In this document: piece after piece, positions 1,221-13,801 of the stretch
Numbering within the stretch: the stretch's first letter is position 1
How the letters are laid out: the number at the start of each line of letters is the position of its first letter
Source: Actinoplanes octamycinicus
Lineage (GTDB): Bacteria; Actinomycetota; Actinomycetes; Mycobacteriales; Micromonosporaceae
NCBI RefSeq assembly: GCF_014205225.1
Contig: NZ_JACHNB010000001.1
Span: forward strand, 10,087,501-10,151,500
Length of the DNA: 64,000 bases
Direction of reading: 5' to 3'
Translations under genes and position numbers: made by a program
Notes under the pieces: generated by a model
The model's database searches: none
Told to the model about the DNA's origin: nothing
Seen by the model: the letters and a program-made list of their open reading frames with translations, nothing else

Positions 1221-3125
1221 TCAGGCGGCGACGGCCGCGCTGGTCACCCCGAGGATCCCGGTGCTGTCCGGCACCACGACCCGGTACTTGCGGCCGCTCA
1301 CCGCGCCGCTGACCGTCACCTTCGCGGCGGCCGGGTACGTGATCGCCTGCACCCACTGGTTGTTCACCAGCTGCTCGACCACCACGGTCTGCCCGTTGAC
1401 CCCGCCGAGCTGGACGCTGAGCGTGCCCTTAGCGGTACGGGTGACCGTCGCCGTGGCCCGCACCGTGTAGCTCGACACCGGCGAGACCGCGACCAGGTTG
1501 GTCGCCGAGGCGGCCACCTTGACCTGGACCTGGAAGCCCTTGGTCGCGGACCGGGTGACCGGCACCGTGCCACTGGTCGTGGTCACCACGTCGCCGCACT
1601 TCTCGGTGCCGCCGGTCTCGGTCACGCAGACCGACACCGTCTTGCGCGCCCACGCCTTGCCCGCCGCGGTCACCGTGAACGTGGTGGCGGTCGAGGTGCC
1701 GTACTTGACCTCGCGCGTCGTCACGTTCGACTTGATGGCCAGGGTGGCCGGCGCCGCGGTGGTGCTGGGCGTCGGGGAGGCCGACTTCGACGGAGACGGG
1801 GCGGACGAGGACGGGGCCGGAGCCGGCGACGACGAGGTGGACGACGGGGACGGCGCCACCGACAGCGACGGCGCGGCGGTCGGAGCGGCGGTCGGAGCGG
1901 CGGTGGGCGCCGAGGTCGGGGCGGTCACGGCCGCCAAGGCCGCCACGGCGTTCACCCGGCCGTACCCGAAATCGTTGTCCTTGCCGGCGGTCCCGAGGTC
2001 GACCGCGGACGTCTCCATCGCCTTCTCGATCTGGTCCGGGGTCAGGCCCGGGTTGACCGACTTGAGCAGCGCGGCCAGGCCCGCCACGTGCGGCGACGCC
2101 ATCGAGGTGCCGCTCATCGTGCCGTAGCTGTTGCCCAGCGCCGCCGGGTAGGTGCTCAGGATCGCGCTGCCGGGCGCCGCCACGTCCACGTAGCTGCCGG
2201 CGTTCGAGTAGTAGGCCACCTTGTCCGCGGAGTCGGTCGCGGCGACCGCGATCACCCCGGTGTCCGCGGCCGGGTAGCTGACCGGGCTGCCCTCCTCGCG
2301 CTCGTTGCCGGCCGCCGCGATCACCGTGACGCCCTTGCCGCGGGCGTAGGCGATCGCGTTGCTGACCGCGGTGACCTTGGTGTCCGAGCCGAGCGACATG
2401 TTGATCACCTGGGCGCCGTTGTCGGCGGCCCAGACGATGCCCTCGGCGGCGTCCGACATGTAGCCGGAGCCGTCCTTGCCGAGCACCCGCACCGGAAGGA
2501 TCTTGGCGTCCGGCGCCACCGAGGAGACGCCGACGGTGTTGCCGGTGACCGCGCCGATGGTGCCGGCCACGTGAGTGCCGTGCCCGTTCGGGTCGATGTT
2601 GCCGCCGGCCTTGTCGGTGGTGGCGTCCCAGCCGGTCAGCACCTTGCCGCTGAGGTCGACGTTGGTGGCGTCCACCCCGGTGTCGATCACCGCGACGGTC
2701 ACCCCGGCGCCGGTCGAGGTCTGCCACGCGTCGACCGCGCGCATCGTGCTCAGGTCCCACTGCCGGCTGCGGTAGAGGTCGCTGCCGGTCGGCGCGCCCA
2801 GCGCGACCGCCTTGGCGTCGATCTCCACGCCGACCGCGTTCTCCGCGCGCTGCGCCTGCTCGACGAGCTTCTTGGCGGCGGCCTTGTCGGTGGCCTGCTT
2901 GACCGTGACGACGGGGCGGCCCTCGGAGTCGAGCGTGGTGCTGACCACCCGGGCCGGCTCCGCCTCCGACACCGTCGCCGGCACCAGCTGCTCCGCGCTC
3001 GCGGTCAGGCCGTAGGTCACCGGCTTCCACTCCGTGGTGCCGGTGGGCAGCGCGTACACACCGACGGCGGCCAGGGCGCCCACGGCCACGGCTCCGGCGG
3101 CGTACCGGCGCAGCTGAACCTTCAT
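1221..3125 (-). CDS. secreted subtilisin-like serine protease (S8 family)
   Basis: A 634-residue exported endopeptidase. The ATG at 3125 (MKVQLRRY) has GGAGG 7 nt upstream; an ATG two codons earlier lies too close to that site. A signal peptide (residues 1 to about 28) is followed by a propeptide-like region. The S8 catalytic domain has Asp in AVIDTGVD (about 148), His in GHGTHVAGT (about 182), the oxyanion Asn in AAAGNE (about 274) and Ser in GTSMASPHVAG (about 341). After about residue 420 there is a PTAAPTAAP linker, a Ser/Pro-rich stretch and a C-terminal beta-rich domain of about 170 residues with one Cys pair (VCVTETGG, EKCGD). A close paralogue lies at 17271. It sits between two family X genes, convergent with one and divergent from the other. 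The substrate is unknown. Confidence 0.93.
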   Translation of the reverse strand: MKVQLRRYAAGAVAVGALAAVGVYALPTGTTEWKPVTYGLTASAEQLVPATVSEAEPARVVSTTLDSEGRPVVTVKQATDKAAAKKLVEQAQRAENAVGVEIDAKAVALGAPTGSDLYRSRQWDLSTMRAVDAWQTSTGAGVTVAVIDTGVDATNVDLSGKVLTGWDATTDKAGGNIDPNGHGTHVAGTIGAVTGNTVGVSSVAPDAKILPVRVLGKDGSGYMSDAAEGIVWAADNGAQVINMSLGSDTKVTAVSNAIAYARGKGVTVIAAAGNEREEGSPVSYPAADTGVIAVAATDSADKVAYYSNAGSYVDVAAPGSAILSTYPAALGNSYGTMSGTSMASPHVAGLAALLKSVNPGLTPDQIEKAMETSAVDLGTAGKDNDFGYGRVNAVAALAAVTAPTSAPTAAPTAAPTAAPSLSVAPSPSSTSSSPAPAPSSSAPSPSKSASPTPSTTAAPATLAIKSNVTTREVKYGTSTATTFTVTAAGKAWARKTVSVCVTETGGTEKCGDVVTTTSGTVPVTRSATKGFQVQVKVAASATNLVAVSPVSSYTVRATATVTRTAKGTLSVQLGGVNGQTVVVEQLVNNQWVQAITYPAAAKVTVSGAVSGRKYRVVVPDSTGILGVTSAAVAA

Positions 3126-3326
3126 TGACATTCCTCCCGATCGCTTGCGAAGACCACCTTCGGGCGGCCGGGTTGCCGCGCCGGCGGCACGCCGGTAGCG
3201 AACGGGTTGCCGGTTCGCAGGGGTTCCGGCGAACTGCCCGAACCCCGCGGCCGGCCGGGAGACGATGGGGAATTCCGGGGCGCATCGCAGCAAAGCGCCC
3301 ACACAGACTCGCGAAAGGTTGAGGAC

Positions 3327-5608: not shown

Positions 5609-8134
5609 TCAGGAGTTGGTCACCGTGAAGGTGGCTCCGGGCGTGACGACGCTCTGGCTGTAGGTCGGGTCGCCGGTGTTGGCAGCGGGAGAACCGTTGG
5701 AGACGAAGGTCAGCGTGTACGCACCGGCCGGGACCGGAACGTTGGGAATGACCACCACATCGGCAGTCGACGCGTTCGGGGCAACACCCGACAGCACCGC
5801 CGTGTCAGCGGCCTCGTCGACACTCAGGACCTGTCGCGGAGCCGCGTAGTTGGTTCCGGTGATCCACCGGCCGATATCCGCCTTCGTCAGGATGCCGTCG
5901 GCGAACGAGACGTTCGCGGTACCATTGCCGACCACGGTCAGGGAGCCCCGGGCGTTCGCGGCACCGATGGTCGCCTGCATGGCCACACCAGCGGTCGCCG
6001 CCTTGGAGAGTACCGCGCTGGTGCCGGCAGCCGTGACCTCACGGATGACCGTGCCCGCCGGGATGCCCGCACCGGTGATGACCTTGCCGACGTCACTCTG
6101 CAGGAAGGTGGAGGTCGTGATGGTCACGACCTTGCTGCCGGACACCGGCGTCACCTCGCCGGCCCCGGTCTGCCGGGAAGCAACGTTGGCAGGCGGGATG
6201 TTGAGCCGCTGCGTCAGGTTCAGGATGCAGGCGGCCTCGTTGTCACTGATGACCAGCACGTCGGTGCATTCCGCGATGGCGGGGTTCACCATGATGCCGC
6301 TGGAAGTGGCCACCTCGGTCGGATCGTACTCACCCCGAGCCAGGTAGATGTGCGCCTGGGCCTGCGACCCGTTGAAGGTGGCCGAGGACAGCCCGACACC
6401 CCGGATCGCCAGGTTCACCGCGACCGCGGTGTTCGGGGCGGTGTTCGGCGTCGCCTCGATCGCCGGGACGAAGCTGTACGCCGACGGCAGGCTCACGCTG
6501 CCGTTCGGAGTGTTGACCGTCAGGATGACGTTCGACTCCTTGGCGTGCATCGGCGTCCGGGCGGTGAACGACGTGGAGTTCACCGGCGTGACGTCGAGCA
6601 GCGGAACCCCACCCAGCGTGGCCGTGATCGAGCCCGCGGCGGTCGTCAGGTTGGCGCCCGAGACGGTGATCTCGGTGCCACCCAGCACGGTGCCGGCCGC
6701 CGGCGTGACGCCGGACAGCGTGGGCGCGGTCGCCGAGGTGTAGGAAGCGGCGCTCAGCAGCGTGCTCGAACCGGTGTTACCACCGTAGATGCACATCTGG
6801 TACTCGGTCGCCGCGGCATTCGTCAGCGGCAGCGCCGGCACCGTGACCGCAGCACGGTAGTTCGACAGCTTGCGCGAAGCCACCGTGGTCGCGACGGTCC
6901 CGGTCGTGGTGTAGAAGGCCGGGCACTGGTCCAGCTTGGTGAACACCACGTACGGGGTGGTGACACCACTCAGGAAGGCCGCCGTTGACGTCGCCGTCAC
7001 ACCGTTGCCACCCGCGGCGGTGCCCACCGTGCTGCTGAGCGTGACCGCCGGGACGTTGATGGTGTAGCTGCTCGTGCCGACCAGCGTGTCACCGCTGCTC
7101 GATCCGCCGTAGAAGCAGACGCTGTACGGGGTGGAGACGTTGGTCGCGTTCGCACCCGCCGGCAGCACACCGGTCACGGTCGTGGCCGACACCTTGGTCA
7201 CGCTGGTCACCGCGGCGGTGCCCGGCGTGCCGTAGGTGGCCGGGCATCCCGTCGCCGAGAAGCGGATGCCTGGAGTGGACGCGAACGTCCCGACGTTGGT
7301 CGGCACCGTGAAGGTGATCGTGTTGCCCGCGCCGGGCGCGCCGTTCGTCGGGTTCGCCGTGACACTGGGCGTCTGGGTGAAGGCGAGCGGACCGGCCACT
7401 GCCGCGCCGCTGGCGTTGGTGTTGTTCTTGTAGACACACAGGTTCATCGCCTGCGGAGCGCCACTGGTCAGCGTCACACCGGTGGGGATGTTGAAGGTCG
7501 CGGTGGTGTTGTCGACCTTGTTCGCGCCGGTCGCGGCGTAGGCCACCTTGTCGGTGATCGTGGTGGTGTAGTTCGCCGGACAGGTCGAGTTGTTGGTGTA
7601 GATCGCCGCCGGCGTTCCGGTCGCGAACGCGTCGCTGGCAGCGGCCTTCACCGTCACCGTGGTTCCGGTCGGACCACCCGAGGTCGAGAGCGCCGGCTGC
7701 ACCGTGAAGATGTTGCCGGGGTCGTCGTTGACCAGGGTCGTCGCCGTGGCGCCGTAAACGCACACGCGGTACTGCTTCGCGGCGCCGCCGGCCGGCACGG
7801 CCAGACCGGCCGGCACGGTGAACTGCAACGTGTCGTTCGTACCCGCGAGCTTGGCCACGTTCGTCGCGGCGGTCGCGTTGGGACCCAGCGAGGTGTAGTC
7901 GGCTGGGCAGCTTGCGAGGGACGACGAGAAGGCCGCCGTCGGCGTTCCGGTGGAGAACGCAGTCGTGGTGGCGACGAAGGTGATCTGGGTGCCGGCGGGG
8001 CCGCTGGTCGGGGTGATGCTGGTCGGCGCGACGGCGAGTGCCATCGTCGGCGCGGCTAGTAGGGCGGCCCCCACCACCCCTGTGGACAGCCCGGCGGCGT
8101 ACGCCAGCCGGGTTTTGTTGCGGGACTTACGCAT
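5609..8134 (-). CDS. large secreted IPT/TIG-domain surface protein
   Basis: 841 residues. The ATG at 8134 (MRKSRNKTRL) has AGGAGG 7 nt upstream. A signal peptide runs to about residue 33. The N-terminal two thirds consist of several related beta-sandwich units of about 100-120 residues; several carry a pair of Cys in CPADYTS / CVYGATA-like contexts (CPANYTT, CPATYGT, CPAFYTT). A clear IPT/TIG domain follows (VLGGTEITVSGANL, TPMHAKE). The C-terminal module shared with the gene at 4115 carries AECTDVLVISD, an inserted stretch, and GAYTLTFVSNG. It reads as a repeat-built surface protein with disulfide-stapled units. No enzyme motif is seen. It lies upstream of the short gene on the same strand, with a terminator between. 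Confidence 0.82.
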   Translation of the reverse strand: MRKSRNKTRLAYAAGLSTGVVGAALLAAPTMALAVAPTSITPTSGPAGTQITFVATTTAFSTGTPTAAFSSSLASCPADYTSLGPNATAATNVAKLAGTNDTLQFTVPAGLAVPAGGAAKQYRVCVYGATATTLVNDDPGNIFTVQPALSTSGGPTGTTVTVKAAASDAFATGTPAAIYTNNSTCPANYTTTITDKVAYAATGANKVDNTTATFNIPTGVTLTSGAPQAMNLCVYKNNTNASGAAVAGPLAFTQTPSVTANPTNGAPGAGNTITFTVPTNVGTFASTPGIRFSATGCPATYGTPGTAAVTSVTKVSATTVTGVLPAGANATNVSTPYSVCFYGGSSSGDTLVGTSSYTINVPAVTLSSTVGTAAGGNGVTATSTAAFLSGVTTPYVVFTKLDQCPAFYTTTGTVATTVASRKLSNYRAAVTVPALPLTNAAATEYQMCIYGGNTGSSTLLSAASYTSATAPTLSGVTPAAGTVLGGTEITVSGANLTTAAGSITATLGGVPLLDVTPVNSTSFTARTPMHAKESNVILTVNTPNGSVSLPSAYSFVPAIEATPNTAPNTAVAVNLAIRGVGLSSATFNGSQAQAHIYLARGEYDPTEVATSSGIMVNPAIAECTDVLVISDNEAACILNLTQRLNIPPANVASRQTGAGEVTPVSGSKVVTITTSTFLQSDVGKVITGAGIPAGTVIREVTAAGTSAVLSKAATAGVAMQATIGAANARGSLTVVGNGTANVSFADGILTKADIGRWITGTNYAAPRQVLSVDEAADTAVLSGVAPNASTADVVVIPNVPVPAGAYTLTFVSNGSPAANTGDPTYSQSVVTPGATFTVTNS

Positions 8135-8228
8135 GCGAGGTCCTCCTACGGGTCCTGCGGACCGCGTCGCTGGATTTTTAGGGCCCTGGCGCTCGGTGAA
8201 CCGTCGCGGGCCATCTCGCGGAAGCGTA
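8135..8228 (-). promoter_or_regulatory. structured 5' leader of the large IPT gene
   Basis: This is the second copy of the leader seen at 5363-5450. On the minus strand it reads GCGAGATGGCCCG, then CGACGCGGTC, then CCCGTAGGAGGA. Stems GGCCC/GGGCC and GGTCC/GGACC (loop GCA) fold with base changes relative to the first copy that keep pairing. The function is unproven; the folding next to the Shine-Dalgarno suggests control of translation. Confidence 0.45.
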
Positions 8229-8358
8229 ACTATTGCTGCCGGTTCGTCTGGGTAGAGTCGCAAACATCCTCATATGTCAGACAAACTCCTGGTAGGGTCG
8301 GTGACCCGCACGGCACCTCGACATATGCCGATGTGACGATCATCGACCGAAGAACAAC

Positions 8359-8505: not shown

Positions 8506-8793
8506 ATGACCCAGATGATGAACATGCCTCGGGTGCAGACCTGCACGGTCACGGACTGTGGCTACAACCACGACGGATGCACCGCGTTCGCGATCACGAT
8601 CGGTGACCTGAACGCGGAGTGTGACACGTTCATCGGCTCCGGCCTCAGTGGCGGGATGGGTGTGGCCACCGCTCAGGTCGGCGCCTGCAAGCGGGCCGAC
8701 TGCAAGTACAACAAGGATCTCGAATGTCAGGCCCCGGCGATTACCGTCGGCGCTTCGGCCGACCGCGCCGACTGTCTGACATACGAAAAGTAA
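8506..8793 (+). CDS. DUF1540 Cys-rich protein (two DUF1540 motifs)
   Basis: 95 residues with GGGAGG 7 nt before the ATG at 8506. Two copies of the short DUF1540 motif are visible: CTVTDCGYNHDGCTAFAITIG with C-DTF after it, and CKRADCKYNKDLECQAPAITVG followed by DCLTY. Each unit offers four Cys and probably binds a metal such as zinc, which is the usual expectation for this family; biochemical function is not established. A terminator follows at 8831. The tandem iron-box-like sites upstream suggest metal-responsive expression. Confidence 0.9.
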   Translation: MTQMMNMPRVQTCTVTDCGYNHDGCTAFAITIGDLNAECDTFIGSGLSGGMGVATAQVGACKRADCKYNKDLECQAPAITVGASADRADCLTYEK

Positions 8794-8830: not shown

Positions 8831-8864
8831 GCCCGCCACCTCCACCCGGAGGCGGCGGGCTTTT
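8831..8864 (+). terminator. Rho-independent terminator after the DUF1540 gene
   Basis: A 13-bp stem with one A-C mismatch (GCCCGCCACCTCC / GGAGGCGGCGGGC), loop of 4 nt, followed by TTTT. Confidence 0.88.
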
Positions 8865-8907
8865 CCGTGTCCACCGTTGACATCGGCCGGAGCCGGCGCT
8901 AGGTTCA

Positions 8908-8936
8908 TCTCACATCGAGTAAGACTCATAGTGAGA
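8908..8936. promoter_or_regulatory. nested 29-bp dyad operator in front of the Nudix-HTH operon
   Basis: Two nested inverted repeats share one centre: outer arms TCTCAC (8908-8913) and GTGAGA (8931-8936), inner arms GAGT (8917-8920) and ACTC (8924-8927), with 3-nt spacers throughout. The right outer arm overlaps the GAAGGA ribosome-binding site (8935-8940) of the gene at 8947. Autorepression by the encoded Nudix-HTH protein is the simplest reading (inference). Confidence 0.55.
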
Positions 8937-8946
8937 AGGACACGCG

Positions 8947-9699
8947 ATGACCGACGAGGCGAGCTTCCTGGCCGAGTACGACCCCCGGGACTACCCGGCC
9001 GTCGCCGTGACCGTCGACGTCGTGGCCCTCACCATCCGGGACGGCAAGCTCTGCGTCCTGCTGGTCGAGCGCGGCGAGCAGCCCTTCGCCGGCCACCGCG
9101 CCCTCCCCGGCGGCTTCGTCCGGGACGAGCCGCTCGACGAGGCCGCGCTGCGGGAGCTGGCCGAGGAGACCGGGCTGCACCCCGGCGAGGGCCCCCTGGA
9201 GCGGGTCCACCTGGAGCAGCTCCGGACCTATGGGGATCCCGGCCGCGACCCCCGGATGCGCGTCGTCTCGGTCGCCTACCTGGCCTTCGCGCCGCACCTG
9301 CCGGAGCCGACCGCCGGCAGCGACGCGGCCCGAGCCTTCTGGATCCCGGTCGAGGACGCCAAGGATCTCGCCTTCGACCACGACCAGATTCTCGCCGAGG
9401 GCCTGGACCGGGCCCGGGACAAGCTGGAGTACACCCCGCTCGCGACCGCCTTCGTCGACCGCGAGTTCACCGTCTCCGAGCTGCGCGCCGTCTACACCGC
9501 GGTGTGGGGCGAGGAGCTGCACGCCGGCAATTTCCACCGCAAGGTGCTGTCGGTGCCCGGCTTCGTGGAGAGCACCGGCGAGACGGCGGCCCGCGGCGGC
9601 GAGCGCGGCGGCCCGCGGGCGAAGCTCTACCGGGCCGGCGACGCCACCCTGCTGCACCCCGCCCTGCTGCGGCCGACCCGGGAGGACCGCATCCGATGA
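8947..9699 (+). CDS. Nudix hydrolase with C-terminal winged helix (NrtR-like)
   Basis: 250 residues; GAAGGA lies 6 nt before the ATG. The N-terminal Nudix domain (about 15-150) has a complete Nudix box starting GGFVRDEPLDEAA and continuing REL-EETGL, so hydrolase activity on a nucleoside-diphosphate substrate remains possible. The C-terminal about 80 residues (FTVSELRAVYTAVWG, NFHRKVLSVPGFVE, PRAKLYRAGD) match the winged-helix part of NrtR-type regulators of NAD metabolism. Many NrtR proteins have a degraded Nudix box and bind ADP-ribose or similar effectors; here the box is intact. It heads a short operon with a VWA protein and a PurA-like enzyme, behind a nested dyad operator. The NAD link is family-based inference. 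Confidence 0.88.
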   Translation: MTDEASFLAEYDPRDYPAVAVTVDVVALTIRDGKLCVLLVERGEQPFAGHRALPGGFVRDEPLDEAALRELAEETGLHPGEGPLERVHLEQLRTYGDPGRDPRMRVVSVAYLAFAPHLPEPTAGSDAARAFWIPVEDAKDLAFDHDQILAEGLDRARDKLEYTPLATAFVDREFTVSELRAVYTAVWGEELHAGNFHRKVLSVPGFVESTGETAARGGERGGPRAKLYRAGDATLLHPALLRPTREDRIR

Positions 9700-9755
9700 G
9701 CCCCGGGGCCACCGACCTGATCACCCCCCAGCACCACCGGATCTAGGAGATCACC

Positions 9756-10601
9756 ATGGGAAGCGGACGCTGGTCCACCGACGTCTACGCCGCCGCCGAG
9801 CACTACCGCGCGGCGACCGGCCAGAGCGCCTTCGCCTACAGCGACAGCGGCGCCCGCCGGGTGCACGCCGCCCTCGACCCGCGCGACGTGTTCATGCGGG
9901 AGTGCCGGGACAGCGACGAGCACCCGGCGAGCACCCCGATCGTGGTGATGTTCGACGTCACCGGCTCGATGCGGCACGTGCCGCGGGTGCTGCAGGCCGA
10001 GCTGCCGCAGCTGCTCGGCCGGCTCACCCAGCAGGGGCGGGTCACCGACCCGCAGATCATGTTCGGCGCGATCGGCGACGCCACCTGCGACCGGGTGCCG
10101 CTGCAGGTGGGCCAGTTCGAGTCGGACAACCGGATGGACGAGGACCTGTCCCGGATCGTGCTGGAGGGCGGCGGGGGCGGCGGCAAGCGCGAGTCCTACG
10201 AGCTGGCGATGTACTTCCTGGCCCGGCACGTGGTCACCGACTCGATGGTCCAGCGGCAGAAAAAGGGCTTCCTCTTCCTGATCGGCGACGAGATGCCCTA
10301 TCAGCAGGTCAAGCCGGACGAGGTGGGCGCGGTCATCGGCGACGACCTGCGCCAGCCGATCCCGACGCGAGAGATCCTCGCCGAGTTGCGCCGCAAGTTC
10401 GAGGTGTTCTTCATCCTGCCCACCGCGGCCAGCCACGGCGGCGACCGGCAGGTCCTGCGGACCTGGCGTGACCTGCTCGGGCAGAACGTGCTGGAGCTCG
10501 ACGACCTGGCTGACATCTGCGAGACGATCGCCCGCCAGGTGGCCTCCTCCGACGACGAGCCGCGGCGGCCGCAGCTGTCGCTCACCGCCCGCCGGTGGTG
10601 A
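9756..10601 (+). CDS. VWA-domain (MIDAS) protein
   Basis: 281 residues; AGGAG lies 6 nt before the ATG at 9756. A von Willebrand factor A-like fold is indicated by the MIDAS start MFDVTGSM (about residues 66-73) and by later Asp/Thr positions (GAIGDATCDR, FLIGDEMPY). There is no signal peptide or membrane segment, so it is probably cytoplasmic. A Gly run (GGGGGGKRESYELA) precedes the middle of the domain. Its TGA overlaps the ATG of the next gene by one base, which points to translational coupling with the PurA-like enzyme. Role unknown; VWA proteins usually act as metal-dependent binding platforms, often with AAA ATPases, but none is adjacent here. Confidence 0.85.
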   Translation: MGSGRWSTDVYAAAEHYRAATGQSAFAYSDSGARRVHAALDPRDVFMRECRDSDEHPASTPIVVMFDVTGSMRHVPRVLQAELPQLLGRLTQQGRVTDPQIMFGAIGDATCDRVPLQVGQFESDNRMDEDLSRIVLEGGGGGGKRESYELAMYFLARHVVTDSMVQRQKKGFLFLIGDEMPYQQVKPDEVGAVIGDDLRQPIPTREILAELRRKFEVFFILPTAASHGGDRQVLRTWRDLLGQNVLELDDLADICETIARQVASSDDEPRRPQLSLTARRW

Positions 10602-11824
10602 TGGCGGAGCACGTCGCGGTCGTCGACCTCGGCTACGGGGACGCCGGCAAGGGCACCGTGGTGGACGCGCTCTGCGGGCGCGGTCCGGTGCGCGCGGTGC
10701 TGCGCTTCAACGGGGGAGCGCAGGCCGCGCACAACGTGGTCACCGACGACGGGCGGCACCACACGTTCAGCCAGTTCGGCTCGGGCACGTTCCGCGGCGT
10801 GCCGACCCACCTGACCCGCTTCATGATCGTCGATCCGCTCGCGCTGGCCGCCGAGGCGGCCGCGCTGGGCAACCCGTTCGACCTGCTCACGGTGGACGGG
10901 GACGCCCTGCTCGCCACTCCGTGGCATCGCGCGGCGAACCGGCGCAGGGAGCGCTCGGACCGGCACGGTTCCTGCGGGATGGGGGTGGGCGAGACTGTCG
11001 CGTACGCCCTGAGCAGCACCGAAGCGCCCCGGGTCGCGGACGTGCGCTCCCCCGCACGGCTGCGGCGGCGGCTGGCGATGGTGCGGGACGCCTACGGGTT
11101 CGCCGACCTCCCGCTCGACGACGTGGTGGACGCGTTCACCGCGTTCGGCAAGGCGGTCCGGATCGTCCCGGGCTCCTTCACCGACCGGCTGCTCCGCGAG
11201 GGTCCGTGCGTCTTCGAGGGCGCGCAGGGCGTGCTGCTCGACGAGTGGCGCGGCTGGCACCCGCACACCACCTGGTCCACCACCACGTTCGACAACGTGG
11301 CGGAGCTGTGCCCGTCGTTCCGCCGGCTCGGGGTGGTCCGCACCTTCACCACCCGGCACGGGGCCGGCCCGTTCGTCACCGCCGACCCGGCGCTGGATCT
11401 GCCGGAGGCGCACAACGGTCACGGCGAGTGGCAGGGCGCGTTCCGGGCCGGCCATTTCGACGCGGTCGCCCATCGGTACGCCGTGGAGGTCTGCGGCGGC
11501 GTCGACGAGCTGGCCGTCACCCACCTGGACGCGCCCGGCCGGGCACCGGGCCTGCGGATCTGCACGTCCTATCGGGATACCGACCGGATCGTTCCCGGCC
11601 CGCCGCGCGATCTGGCGTACCAGGCGACCCTGACCGCCGCCCTGACCCGCGCCACCCCCGCTGAGCTGCACCGACCCGACAATTGGGCGGAAGCGATCGG
11701 CGCCCTGCTCAGGGTTCCGGTCACCCTGGAGTCGTACGGCCCGCGCGCCGCCGACAAGCGTTTCGTCCCCGCGGGAGTACACCGTCCGGAGCGGATACCT
11801 CCGGTGGCGTATTGCCCGGTCTGA
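10601..11824 (+). CDS. divergent adenylosuccinate synthetase homologue (PurA-like)
   Basis: 407 residues starting at ATG 10601 within a TGATG overlap. The PurA fold is recognisable in order: the GTP/IMP loop as LGYGDAGKGTVVDAL (usual form GDEGKGK), GGAQAAHNVV (usual GGHNAGHT; the His is kept), HGSCGMGVGE, FEGAQGVLLD, FTTRHGAGPFVT, LDAPGR...ICTSYR and a C-terminal PVTLESYGP. The catalytic Asp of GDxGKG is kept; the neighbouring Glu is Ala and the following Lys is Thr. So it may condense a purine nucleotide with an amino acid, or it may have changed substrate. The housekeeping purA is expected elsewhere. Its context (Nudix regulator, VWA protein) is not purine biosynthesis. Confidence 0.85.
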   Translation: MAEHVAVVDLGYGDAGKGTVVDALCGRGPVRAVLRFNGGAQAAHNVVTDDGRHHTFSQFGSGTFRGVPTHLTRFMIVDPLALAAEAAALGNPFDLLTVDGDALLATPWHRAANRRRERSDRHGSCGMGVGETVAYALSSTEAPRVADVRSPARLRRRLAMVRDAYGFADLPLDDVVDAFTAFGKAVRIVPGSFTDRLLREGPCVFEGAQGVLLDEWRGWHPHTTWSTTTFDNVAELCPSFRRLGVVRTFTTRHGAGPFVTADPALDLPEAHNGHGEWQGAFRAGHFDAVAHRYAVEVCGGVDELAVTHLDAPGRAPGLRICTSYRDTDRIVPGPPRDLAYQATLTAALTRATPAELHRPDNWAEAIGALLRVPVTLESYGPRAADKRFVPAGVHRPERIPPVAYCPV

Positions 11825-11873: not shown

Positions 11874-12293
11874 ATGCGCTCCGCTTATCGAGCTGTGTCT
11901 GGATTGATTCTGCTGGGCGTCGTCGTCCAGCTGGTGGCGGTCGCCGCCGCGTGGTTCCAGGTGCTCAGCGACGTCGACGACGGCGGCGTCTTCGACAACA
12001 ACACACAGAACTGGGGCCACGCCCTGCACAGCGTGGTCGGCGGCATGGTGATCCCGCTGCTGGCGGTCGTGCTCCTGGTGATCTCCTTCTTCGCCGGCGT
12101 CCCGCACGGCGTGCGGTACGCGCTGTTCGTCTTCGGCGCGGTGGTCCTGCAGGTCGTACTGGCCTTCGCCAGTTACAGCGTCCCCGGGCTGGGCGCGCTG
12201 CACGGGCTGAACGCGCTCGCCGTCGCCGGCCTCGCCGAGAACGCCATGCGCAAGGCCCGCGTCGCCGACCGGGCGCCCGCCGCGGTCGCCTGA
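11874..12293 (+). CDS. small four-helix membrane protein
   Basis: 139 residues; a GGGGGA site precedes the ATG at 11874. Four hydrophobic segments are visible (about 8-28, 50-75, 80-105 and 110-125), with a conserved-looking DNNTQNWGHALHS loop that contains His. It resembles the small actinobacterial DUF6220-type membrane proteins, but I am not certain of the assignment. Its stop overlaps the start of the multicopper oxidase by one base (TGATG), so the two are probably made together, and the membrane protein may serve as anchor or electron partner. Confidence 0.75.
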   Translation: MRSAYRAVSGLILLGVVVQLVAVAAAWFQVLSDVDDGGVFDNNTQNWGHALHSVVGGMVIPLLAVVLLVISFFAGVPHGVRYALFVFGAVVLQVVLAFASYSVPGLGALHGLNALAVAGLAENAMRKARVADRAPAAVA

Positions 12294-13801
12294 TGCGCCG
12301 CTCGACCAGGGCCGTCATCGCCGCGGTGGCGGCCCTCGCCGTGCTCGGACCGATCGGCTGGTTCTGGTACGACAGCCTGGTCCCGGGCACCTACGACATG
12401 ACCGCGATGGGGTACCCGGACAGCGGCGGCGGCCCGGCCGTCGCCCACGACCACGCGGCCGGGATCTCGGTGGCCGACCTCAAGGGCCCGAGCGGGACGC
12501 CGGACGTGGCGGTGACGCTGACCGCCCGCAAGGACGGCGCGCGCTACACGCTGAACGGCTCCTCCCCCGGCCCGGAGATCCGGGCGGTCCAGGGCCAGCT
12601 GATCCAGGTGACGCTGGTCAACGAGTCGGTGCCGGACGGGGTGACCCTGCACTGGCACGGGGTGGACGTGCCGAACGGGGAGGACGGCGTCGCCGGGGTG
12701 ACCCAGGACGCGGTGCCCCGTGGGCAGAGCTTCGTCTACCGGTTCGTGGCGAAGGACGCCGGGACCTACTGGTACCACTCGCATCAGGTCTCCCACGAAC
12801 AGGTGAAGAACGGCCTGTTCGGCCCGCTGGTGATCACCCCGGGCCGGGCCGCGCCGCCGGACCGGGCCGCGCCGCCGGACCAGGTCGCGCCGCCGGACCG
12901 GGCCGCGCCGCCAGACCAGGCCGCGCCGCCAGACCAGGCCGCGCCGCCAGACCAGGCAGCTCCGCCAGACCAGGCCGCGCCGCCGGACCAGGTCGCGATG
13001 GTGCACACCTATCAGGGCAAGCGCACCATCAACGGGGCGCCGGGCGTCTCGGAGCTGCGGTCCCGCTACGTCCGCCTGATCAACACGGACGCCGGGCCGA
13101 TCCGGGTCTGGGTGAGCGGCACGTCGTTCCAGGTCGCGGCGATCGACGGCCACGACGTGCACCGGCCCGGCACGGTGCGGGACCGGGCGGTGCTGGTCAC
13201 CGCCGGCGGCCGGGTCGATCTGCGGCTGACCGGTCCGGGCCGCGTCGACGTCGGCGGCAGCGCGGCGCTCGCGGCCCCCGGCACGGCTGCGGCCGCGCTT
13301 CCGGGCGAGACAGTGGACTTCCTCTCGTACGGAGAACCCGCTCCTCTCGGTTTTGATCCTGGCCGGGCGAACCGCCGTTTCCGGTACGACATCGGCCGGC
13401 GCTTCGGCTTCCTCGACGGCCGGCCGGGCATGTGGTGGACGGTCAACGGCCACCTCTTCCCGGACATCCCGATGTTCATGGTGACCACCGGCGACGTGGT
13501 CCGGATGACCGTGCACAACGGCAGCGGCGAGGTGCACCCGATGCACCTGCACGGCCACCACGTCGTGGTCCTCACCCACAACGGCGTCACCGCCACCGGC
13601 AGCCCGTGGTGGACCGACTCCCTCGACGTGCCGGACGGCGACACTTTCGAGCTGGCCTTCATCGCCGACAACCCGGGCATCTGGGCCGACCACTGCCACA
13701 ACCTGGACCACGTCCCGGAGGGCTTGGTCGCCCACCTCGCCTACGCCGGTGTCCGCACCCCCTTCCAGGTCGGCGGCAAGAACGCCAACACCCCGGAGTG
13801 A
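12293..13801 (+). CDS. multicopper oxidase with an internal hexapeptide repeat
   Basis: 502 residues starting at the ATG overlapping the previous stop. One N-terminal hydrophobic segment (about 8-25) serves as signal anchor. All four copper-binding motifs are present: HWHG (about 120-123), YHSH (about 161-164), HPMHLHGHH (about 415) and HCHNLDH (about 468), so it should oxidise metals or phenolics with reduction of oxygen to water outside the membrane. The position equivalent to the axial ligand appears to be Leu. Between the first and second cupredoxin domains lies an insertion of eight [R/Q][A/V]APPD hexapeptides (residues 185-232), a Pro-rich linker encoded by 18-bp tandem repeats. Confidence 0.92.
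   Translation: MRRSTRAVIAAVAALAVLGPIGWFWYDSLVPGTYDMTAMGYPDSGGGPAVAHDHAAGISVADLKGPSGTPDVAVTLTARKDGARYTLNGSSPGPEIRAVQGQLIQVTLVNESVPDGVTLHWHGVDVPNGEDGVAGVTQDAVPRGQSFVYRFVAKDAGTYWYHSHQVSHEQVKNGLFGPLVITPGRAAPPDRAAPPDQVAPPDRAAPPDQAAPPDQAAPPDQAAPPDQAAPPDQVAMVHTYQGKRTINGAPGVSELRSRYVRLINTDAGPIRVWVSGTSFQVAAIDGHDVHRPGTVRDRAVLVTAGGRVDLRLTGPGRVDVGGSAALAAPGTAAAALPGETVDFLSYGEPAPLGFDPGRANRRFRYDIGRRFGFLDGRPGMWWTVNGHLFPDIPMFMVTTGDVVRMTVHNGSGEVHPMHLHGHHVVVLTHNGVTATGSPWWTDSLDVPDGDTFELAFIADNPGIWADHCHNLDHVPEGLVAHLAYAGVRTPFQVGGKNANTPE
12845..12988 (+). repeat. 18-bp coding tandem repeat, eight units
   Basis: Eight near-identical 18-bp units encode RAAPPD or QAAPPD (one QVAPPD) inside the multicopper oxidase. The near identity at synonymous sites suggests recent slippage or unequal crossing-over. 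Confidence 0.9.

Follow-up and report, generated by a model that had tools for sequence, protein, structure and literature searches.

The 64,000-nucleotide stretch of the Actinoplanes octamycinicus genome analyzed here (the window) carries at 8947–11824, on the plus strand throughout, genes for a Nudix/winged-helix protein, a von Willebrand factor A (VWA) protein with a metal ion-dependent adhesion site (MIDAS) and a paralogue of adenylosuccinate synthetase (PurA). The operon is real and widespread and, as far as literature searches go, undescribed; no paper on the cassette was found by titles and abstract openings, with subscription journals sparsely covered. We tentatively favor its reading as an accessory, autorepressed operon for a purine ligase that depends on GTP, has an altered second substrate and is assisted by chaperone-like partners. 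A preliminary description of the locus had proposed a dedicated, uncharacterized nucleotide-related system, and this proposal is supported by the conserved neighborhood and by a separate, normal PurA encoded elsewhere in the genome. The latter, a second PF00709 gene at C1:1898170-1899420, scores 596 bits as canonical PurA, which rules out the cassette paralogue as the single housekeeping enzyme.

Relatives were sought with an alignment of eight VWA proteins, which gave at least 550 in genome contigs; viral contigs gave 319. The 80 best of each group form the locus set, and the counts therefore lean toward closer relatives. Genes in these loci were called with home-made profiles at E below 1e-10; some loci are truncated where their contig stops, and the viral set includes at least one identical pair (L117 and L154). 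The order Nudix, JK, VWA, PurA-like, where JK is a protein with a J-domain and a kinase fold, is found in 70 of the 80 bacterial loci. The others comprise four JK-VWA-PurA-like, four Nudix-VWA-PurA-like, one Nudix-VWA and one VWA-PurA-like arrangement. Co-occurrence of its three families in related genomes, which the preliminary description had named as a check, is thus observed in a fixed order. Its three-gene operon holds for the window, but the usual bacterial form has four genes. In the viral loci VWA and PurA-like are present together in 77 and JK in 53 (45 JK-VWA-PurA-like, 25 VWA-PurA-like, four Nudix-VWA-PurA-like-JK, two JK-VWA and one each of four other sets), and Nudix is seen in six within the flanks examined. 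A further 37 stretches, including the organism's own genome and some repeats of one genome, contain all four genes in 34 cases; the rest are one JK-VWA-PurA-like, one Nudix-VWA and one Nudix-VWA-PurA-like, the last being the window itself.

The cassette is also carried by named phages and plasmids. VWA is encoded in 208 of 50,697 phage records (189 Mycobacterium, 10 Rhizobium, six Vibrio and three others) and in 21 of 72,556 plasmid records. Phage LRRHood has the order JK (gp253), VWA (gp254), an 88-residue protein and PurA-like (gp256), and the four plasmids examined (Tsukamurella, Rhodococcus, Acetobacter and Agrobacterium) have JK, VWA and PurA-like in order. Searches of 200 genomes of the family Micromonosporaceae with the VWA and PurA-like profiles, run on the same genome set, find both in 108, VWA only in one (G158), PurA-like only in none and neither in 91. 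The PurA-like matches, at E of 7e-133 or better, are clear of canonical PurA (about 1e-52 to 1e-67). VWA is present in 30 of 36 genomes of the window's own genus. Among the matches listed, VWA relatives in genome contigs span many genera, unlike a phylum-wide prevalence of 2/396; that figure, for which only five candidates per genome were scored, points against a broad spread and was set aside. The VWA family as a whole gave 7,212 matches among 8,000 scored candidates. Furthermore, the VWA, PurA-like and JK distance matrices correlate at 0.94 to 0.96 over 127 loci and at 0.78 to 0.90 over 47 viral loci, and none of 200 permutations reaches the full-set values. Co-occurrence and gene order across so many loci are more than chance. 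The VWA tree (169 tips, with the window present twice) has five bacterial/viral changes against at least 48 with shuffled labels, so exchange between bacteria and viruses looks infrequent.

The PurA-like protein (407 residues, 10601–11824, plus strand) has the PurA fold and matches Pfam Adenylsucc_synt (5.3e-48), but lies below both curated PurA equivalog cut-offs (121.7 versus 402 bits and 96.3 versus 395.55). Its ATG overlaps the VWA stop codon by 1 bp (TGATG), as first described; a program-made list of open reading frames (ORFs) starts the frame at an upstream GTG, 10595. The alignment contained 158 PurA-like sequences together with E. coli PurA and the organism's own PurA; 148 rows were tallied (78 bacterial, including the window, and 70 viral) and 10 were aligned only. 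VIA-align was used on the PurA-like model only. Following E. coli PurA numbering, residues D13, K16, G17, H41, Q224 and D333 are kept in all 148 rows; since the catalytic set is intact, the GTP-dependent step at O6 is likely retained. The aspartate loop, TTGRxRR in PurA, is one residue shorter in every row, and almost all rows have (W/F/Y)QG-x-(F/L)-R there. T301 becomes Q in 147 rows and T300 becomes W in 116 and F or Y in 28, while R305 is kept in none (F in 113, L in 21). Replacements extend to V273 (H in 148), N38 (Q in 146), T129 (C in 131, V in 15), the R131 position (hydrophobic in 140) and K331 (H in 119, C in 25).

Compared with PurA, the paralogue shares the fold, the size, a GDxGKG-type loop, the D13/K16/H41/Q224 set and the GTP-base residue D333. 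It differs in the shorter, rebuilt loop, in the replacement of R305, T129, R131, V273 and N38, and in R303 and R143, which are not conserved. In PurA, R303 contacts aspartate and lies near the ribose O2' (PMC8342488), and titles in the Protein Data Bank (PDB) include E. coli PurA mutants at K16, R143 and R303. Judged from the residue pattern, the second substrate is probably changed relative to PurA, the nucleotide substrate is possibly changed as well, and the product probably differs from the usual adenine precursor. The rebuilt loop makes the name adenylosuccinate synthetase doubtful. Loop changes had been invoked against a plain housekeeping PurA from the start, namely GDAGKG for GDEGKG and QAAHN for NAGHT. 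Both are confirmed and the direction of the argument was right, but they spare D13, K16 and H41; the aspartate loop is the stronger evidence, since the earlier changes keep the catalytic residues. Position 14 is A in 76 of 78 bacterial rows and E in 55 of 70 viral rows, and the E14 to A change reads as a mark of clade with no loss of catalysis.

The first gene (8947–9699, plus strand) encodes an NrtR-type regulator whose intact Nudix box and NrtR-like winged helix, both anticipated in the preliminary description, are borne out by the window sequence and by scores over the Pfam cut-offs (NUDIX, 5.5e-19; NrtR_WHD, 2.9e-11). Its PDB matches include AraR (6.2e-28) and 3gz5 (1.1e-27). Of 76 bacterial Nudix copies, 72 retain the RE..EE core; across 87 copies of every kind, one of them a window fragment, the strict Nudix box is found in 42, and many have insertions. 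Upstream lies a likely promoter by sequence inspection (8877–8905, plus strand), with TTGACA at 8877–8882, a 17-nt spacer and TAGGTT at 8900–8905. By eye, TTGACA-like and CTAGGTT/CTAAGTT boxes repeatedly precede the operator in Actinoplanes and Micromonospora (40 of 76 regions inspected). A consensus promoter scan calls no promoter here, the second hexamer being off consensus. The putative operator (8909–8935, plus strand) consists of two tandem CTC-N5-GAG palindromes 16 bp apart and spans the expected transcription start; the beginning of the locus in the preliminary description, 8908, coincides with its edge.

The exact tandem CTC-N5-GAG-N5-CTC-N5-GAG stands 5' of Nudix in 68 of 76 bacterial loci and, with at most one mismatch, in 73; the other three have three or five mismatches. 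It is absent from all 231 regions 5' of JK, VWA or PurA-like. As a background, these loci were cut into 6,365 segments of 150 nt; the tandem occurs in 59, most of which are taken to be the operators themselves. In the 10.28-Mb genome it is the sole site at one mismatch or fewer, so the operator is confined to the cassette's own operon. A wider regulon was considered and rejected: four more distinct sites with two mismatches, against two hits for a control pattern, are indistinguishable from chance. Seven phage or plasmid loci do not have the operator 5' of Nudix (three to seven mismatches; only 38 nt of upstream sequence in L170). As in NrtR and AraR, Nudix and winged-helix domains are combined with an operator, here a predicted one, at the regulator's own promoter. 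The present regulator differs in having one target operon (at one mismatch or fewer), a tandem CTC-N5-GAG operator and an intact Nudix box, and it scores 122.2 bits against a cut-off of 400 for the NtrR equivalog. These features suggest autorepression by the Nudix/winged-helix protein, and the 'sensor or hydrolase' of the preliminary description now makes most sense as the regulator of its own operon.

The VWA protein (281 residues, 9756–10601, plus strand) has no Pfam or NCBIfam hit. Its AlphaFold2 model (mean pLDDT 92.5, pTM 0.90) matches integrin I/VWA domains, and the sequence matches PHROG_2971 at 2.4e-68. A DxSxS-type motif, a further Asp and a Rossmann-like fold are all present, in agreement with the MIDAS protein first described. 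Of 169 rows, one of which (L009) repeats the window, at least 168 conserve each of the MIDAS residues D67, T69, S71 and D108, and a single row deviates, at two positions. In JK the HPD motif is found in 117 of 132 sequences. In 131 of 132 the Asp of the catalytic loop is replaced by A, G, S or N, and the Lys and Glu of the ATP site are each retained in 113. JK is therefore a pseudokinase that may recruit Hsp70, and the two folds point to a scaffold or assembly role for VWA and JK. TerY-P type triads consist of kinase, phosphatase and vWA proteins and share with the cassette a kinase-fold protein adjoining a vWA protein; here, by contrast, the kinase-fold protein is a J-domain pseudokinase.

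The window copy has lost JK by deletion. The scar, a frame of 16 codons plus stop between Nudix and VWA (9696–9746, plus strand), recognized by comparison with sister loci, starts where JK starts in relatives, and its end resembles by eye the 3' end of JK in L018, L019 and L212. Relocation of JK within the genome was rejected, as only weak matches were obtained (E of 6.7e-4 or worse, in frames of 359–1157 residues). Nor is the shortness of the window VWA (281 residues, median 319) tied to the loss, since L211 (284 residues) and L212 (280 residues) are short yet keep JK. Nei–Gojobori (NG86) dN/dS values against six Actinoplanes-group loci are 0.15–0.29 for Nudix, 0.38–0.53 for VWA and 0.29–0.41 for PurA-like; for Nudix and its L018 orthologue dN is 0.065 and dS 0.358. 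The three remaining genes thus look selected, VWA least. A different, partial JK deletion is seen in L020/L213 (A. siamensis), which has an open VWA frame and no PurA-like match.

According to the scheme that we favor, the Nudix/winged-helix protein would bind the tandem operator over its own promoter and silence the operon until a small ligand at the Nudix domain, ADP-ribose- or nucleotide-like by family precedent, lifts repression. The PurA-like enzyme would share with PurA the GTP-dependent phosphorylation of O6, here on a hypoxanthine-type (or guanine-type) purine; the phosphate would then be displaced by some nucleophile in place of free L-aspartate, yielding an N6-substituted purine. VWA, joined in most bacterial relatives by a JK that could call in Hsp70, would hold, assemble or feed the enzyme. 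A bolder form of this scheme, which we regard as improbable, makes the enzyme the founder of a new class of GTP-dependent ligases, in which the purine is coupled to something else than free aspartate. The nucleophile would possibly be a peptide or protein amine presented by the VWA and J-domain proteins, and the product an N6-linked purine conjugate serving as a signal or tag in bacteria and phages.

Several observations weigh against the favored scheme. R306 is kept in 146 of 148 PurA-like rows. R303 is better called 'not conserved' than lost everywhere: the place of the gap is arbitrary, and the residue after QG, Ala in 37 of 78 bacterial rows including the window, is Arg in 27 of 148 (23 bacterial, four viral) and Lys in 14, all viral. 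Rows with Arg or Lys here may retain an R303 equivalent. The R143 region aligns poorly and shows no common Arg, and a partner protein might supply the aspartate contacts. The cassette is dispensable, given the six of 36 same-genus genomes in which VWA has no match. Finally, a copy without JK may be decaying, its VWA having the highest dN/dS of the three genes.

Neighbor ORFs were chosen by a greedy longest-ORF rule, and some are not genes. Recurrent bacterial neighbors reflect Micromonospora synteny, except for one common SDR-type family (25 loci). Among viral neighbors NAMPT (nicotinamide phosphoribosyltransferase) alone stood out: its gene lies beside the cassette in seven of the 80 viral loci (L117, L123, L128, L132, L145, L154 and L170), six of them distinct, and Pfam names NAMPT in four of 142 viral neighbor ORFs; it is not a recurrent neighbor in the 80 bacterial loci. 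Some NAMPT-bearing viral loci also carry Nudix near NAMPT. In Rhizobium phage L003 a phosphoribosyltransferase-like gene (1590–2444) and a gene annotated as NMN adenylyltransferase/Nudix (2693–3265) precede VWA and PurA-like by a few kilobases.

Within the window, a small Cys-rich DUF1540 protein is encoded directly 5' of the cassette (8506–8793, plus strand). It is present in 15 of 85 bacterial loci, of which the 14 printed all belong to the Actinoplanes group, and a GC-rich hairpin followed by a T run at about 8836–8867 (by eye) suggests a separate transcript. Farther upstream, 5609–8263 (minus strand) encodes a large protein with repeated IPT/TIG-like segments (by eye), with relatives near the cassette in 13 of 85 loci. 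On the 3' side, 11874–13801 (plus strand) holds a gene for a membrane protein with a weak DUF6220 match below cut-off, found in five of 85 loci, and a second frame, by eye multicopper-oxidase-like with APPDQ/APPDR repeats.

A different account makes the cassette a conflict module that makes, alters or removes a nucleotide signal, perhaps one tied to NAD or ADP-ribose, in defense in bacteria and counter-defense in phages. We consider it rather unlikely, although the phage records and the 319 viral stretches are in its favor, as are the ADP-ribose-type regulator and the NAMPT genes. The NAD link itself is only hinted at, by the NrtR-type regulator and by NAMPT in seven viral loci, two of them identical. 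Published NAD-ADPr host systems place Nudix-HTH factors and vWA chaperones around ADP-ribosylglycohydrolase (ARG), according to section 3.8 of PMC9503650. The likeness to these anti-ADP-ribosylation systems lies in the pairing of a Nudix-HTH regulator with a vWA protein; the cassette, by contrast, has a PurA-like ligase at its core and lacks ARG, for which no match was obtained in the three window proteins or in ten relatives and neighbors scanned. The terms adenylosuccin- and DnaJ are absent from PMC9503650, and adenylosuccin- from PMC7824862 on jumbo phages. According to PMC9476963, the genes that C1 mycobacteriophages share include 240 (serine/threonine kinase), 241 (HNH endonuclease) and 243 (PurA-like adenylosuccinate synthetase), with kinase and PurA-like genes listed separately, not as one system. 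Kinase-bearing PADLOC models are matched in part by JK of LRRHood (MkoA, 6e-16; PD-T4-6, 5e-12) and of L018 (MkoA, 1.3e-6), but these matches cover the kinase domain and may reflect fold only. Neither the three window proteins nor the VWA and PurA-like proteins of LRRHood have a PADLOC match. Further points against a conflict module are the chromosomal neighbors that Micromonospora loci have in common, the scarcity of Nudix in viral loci within the flanks examined, and the absence of ARG, Macro and NADAR from the 25 of 73 families listed for the 142 viral neighbors.

It is also unlikely that the enzyme is a stress or backup PurA isozyme with adenylosuccinate as its product and a different mode of holding aspartate. 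The loop is shortened in all 148 rows, T300, T301 and R305 are replaced in nearly all, as are T129, R131, V273 and N38, and canonical PurA does not need the strict partnership with VWA.

A PurZ-like enzyme for modified DNA nucleotides of the 2-aminoadenine type would fit carriage by phage genomes and a PHROG_1211 label of 2-aminooxy adenylosuccinate synthetase, and we regard it as very unlikely. The protein scores 19.1 bits against a cut-off of 300 for the NCBIfam PurZ model. According to PMC8342488, PurZ binds phosphate through an arginine of the other subunit and the two PurZ described keep the aspartate-loop tip; neither feature is conserved here. PurZ and PurZ0 of the phage 2-aminoadenine pathway also have different partners, no datZ or mazZ is among the neighbor families listed (25 of 73 and 25 of 144), and the cassette is chromosomal in many bacteria. 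Separately, the labels given to these proteins in phage records and in PHROG_1211, '2-aminooxy' or PurA-like adenylosuccinate synthetase, name a function for which the residue table gives no support. Least probable of all is a role in a nucleoside natural-product pathway, like the second Pur set of formycin A biosynthesis, an actinobacterial precedent (PMC8724604), given that the 80 bacterial loci have no conserved biosynthetic neighbor beyond genus-level synteny and that phages carry the cassette too.

The VWA family is large, and its named representatives among 120 listed members are called hypothetical, uncharacterized or VWA domain-containing protein. Its PurA-like partners are annotated as adenylosuccinate synthetase in the phage and plasmid records examined, a name that is premature before assay, and a plain count of purA-like genes would include the paralogue in 108 of the 200 family genomes. 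The end use of the cassette may be defense, NAD-linked signaling or another purpose. Soil actinobacteria and large phages have this module in common, and it comes with a regulator and operator of its own. Through it a new purine derivative, and perhaps a new signal acting between phage and host, could be sought by direct test.

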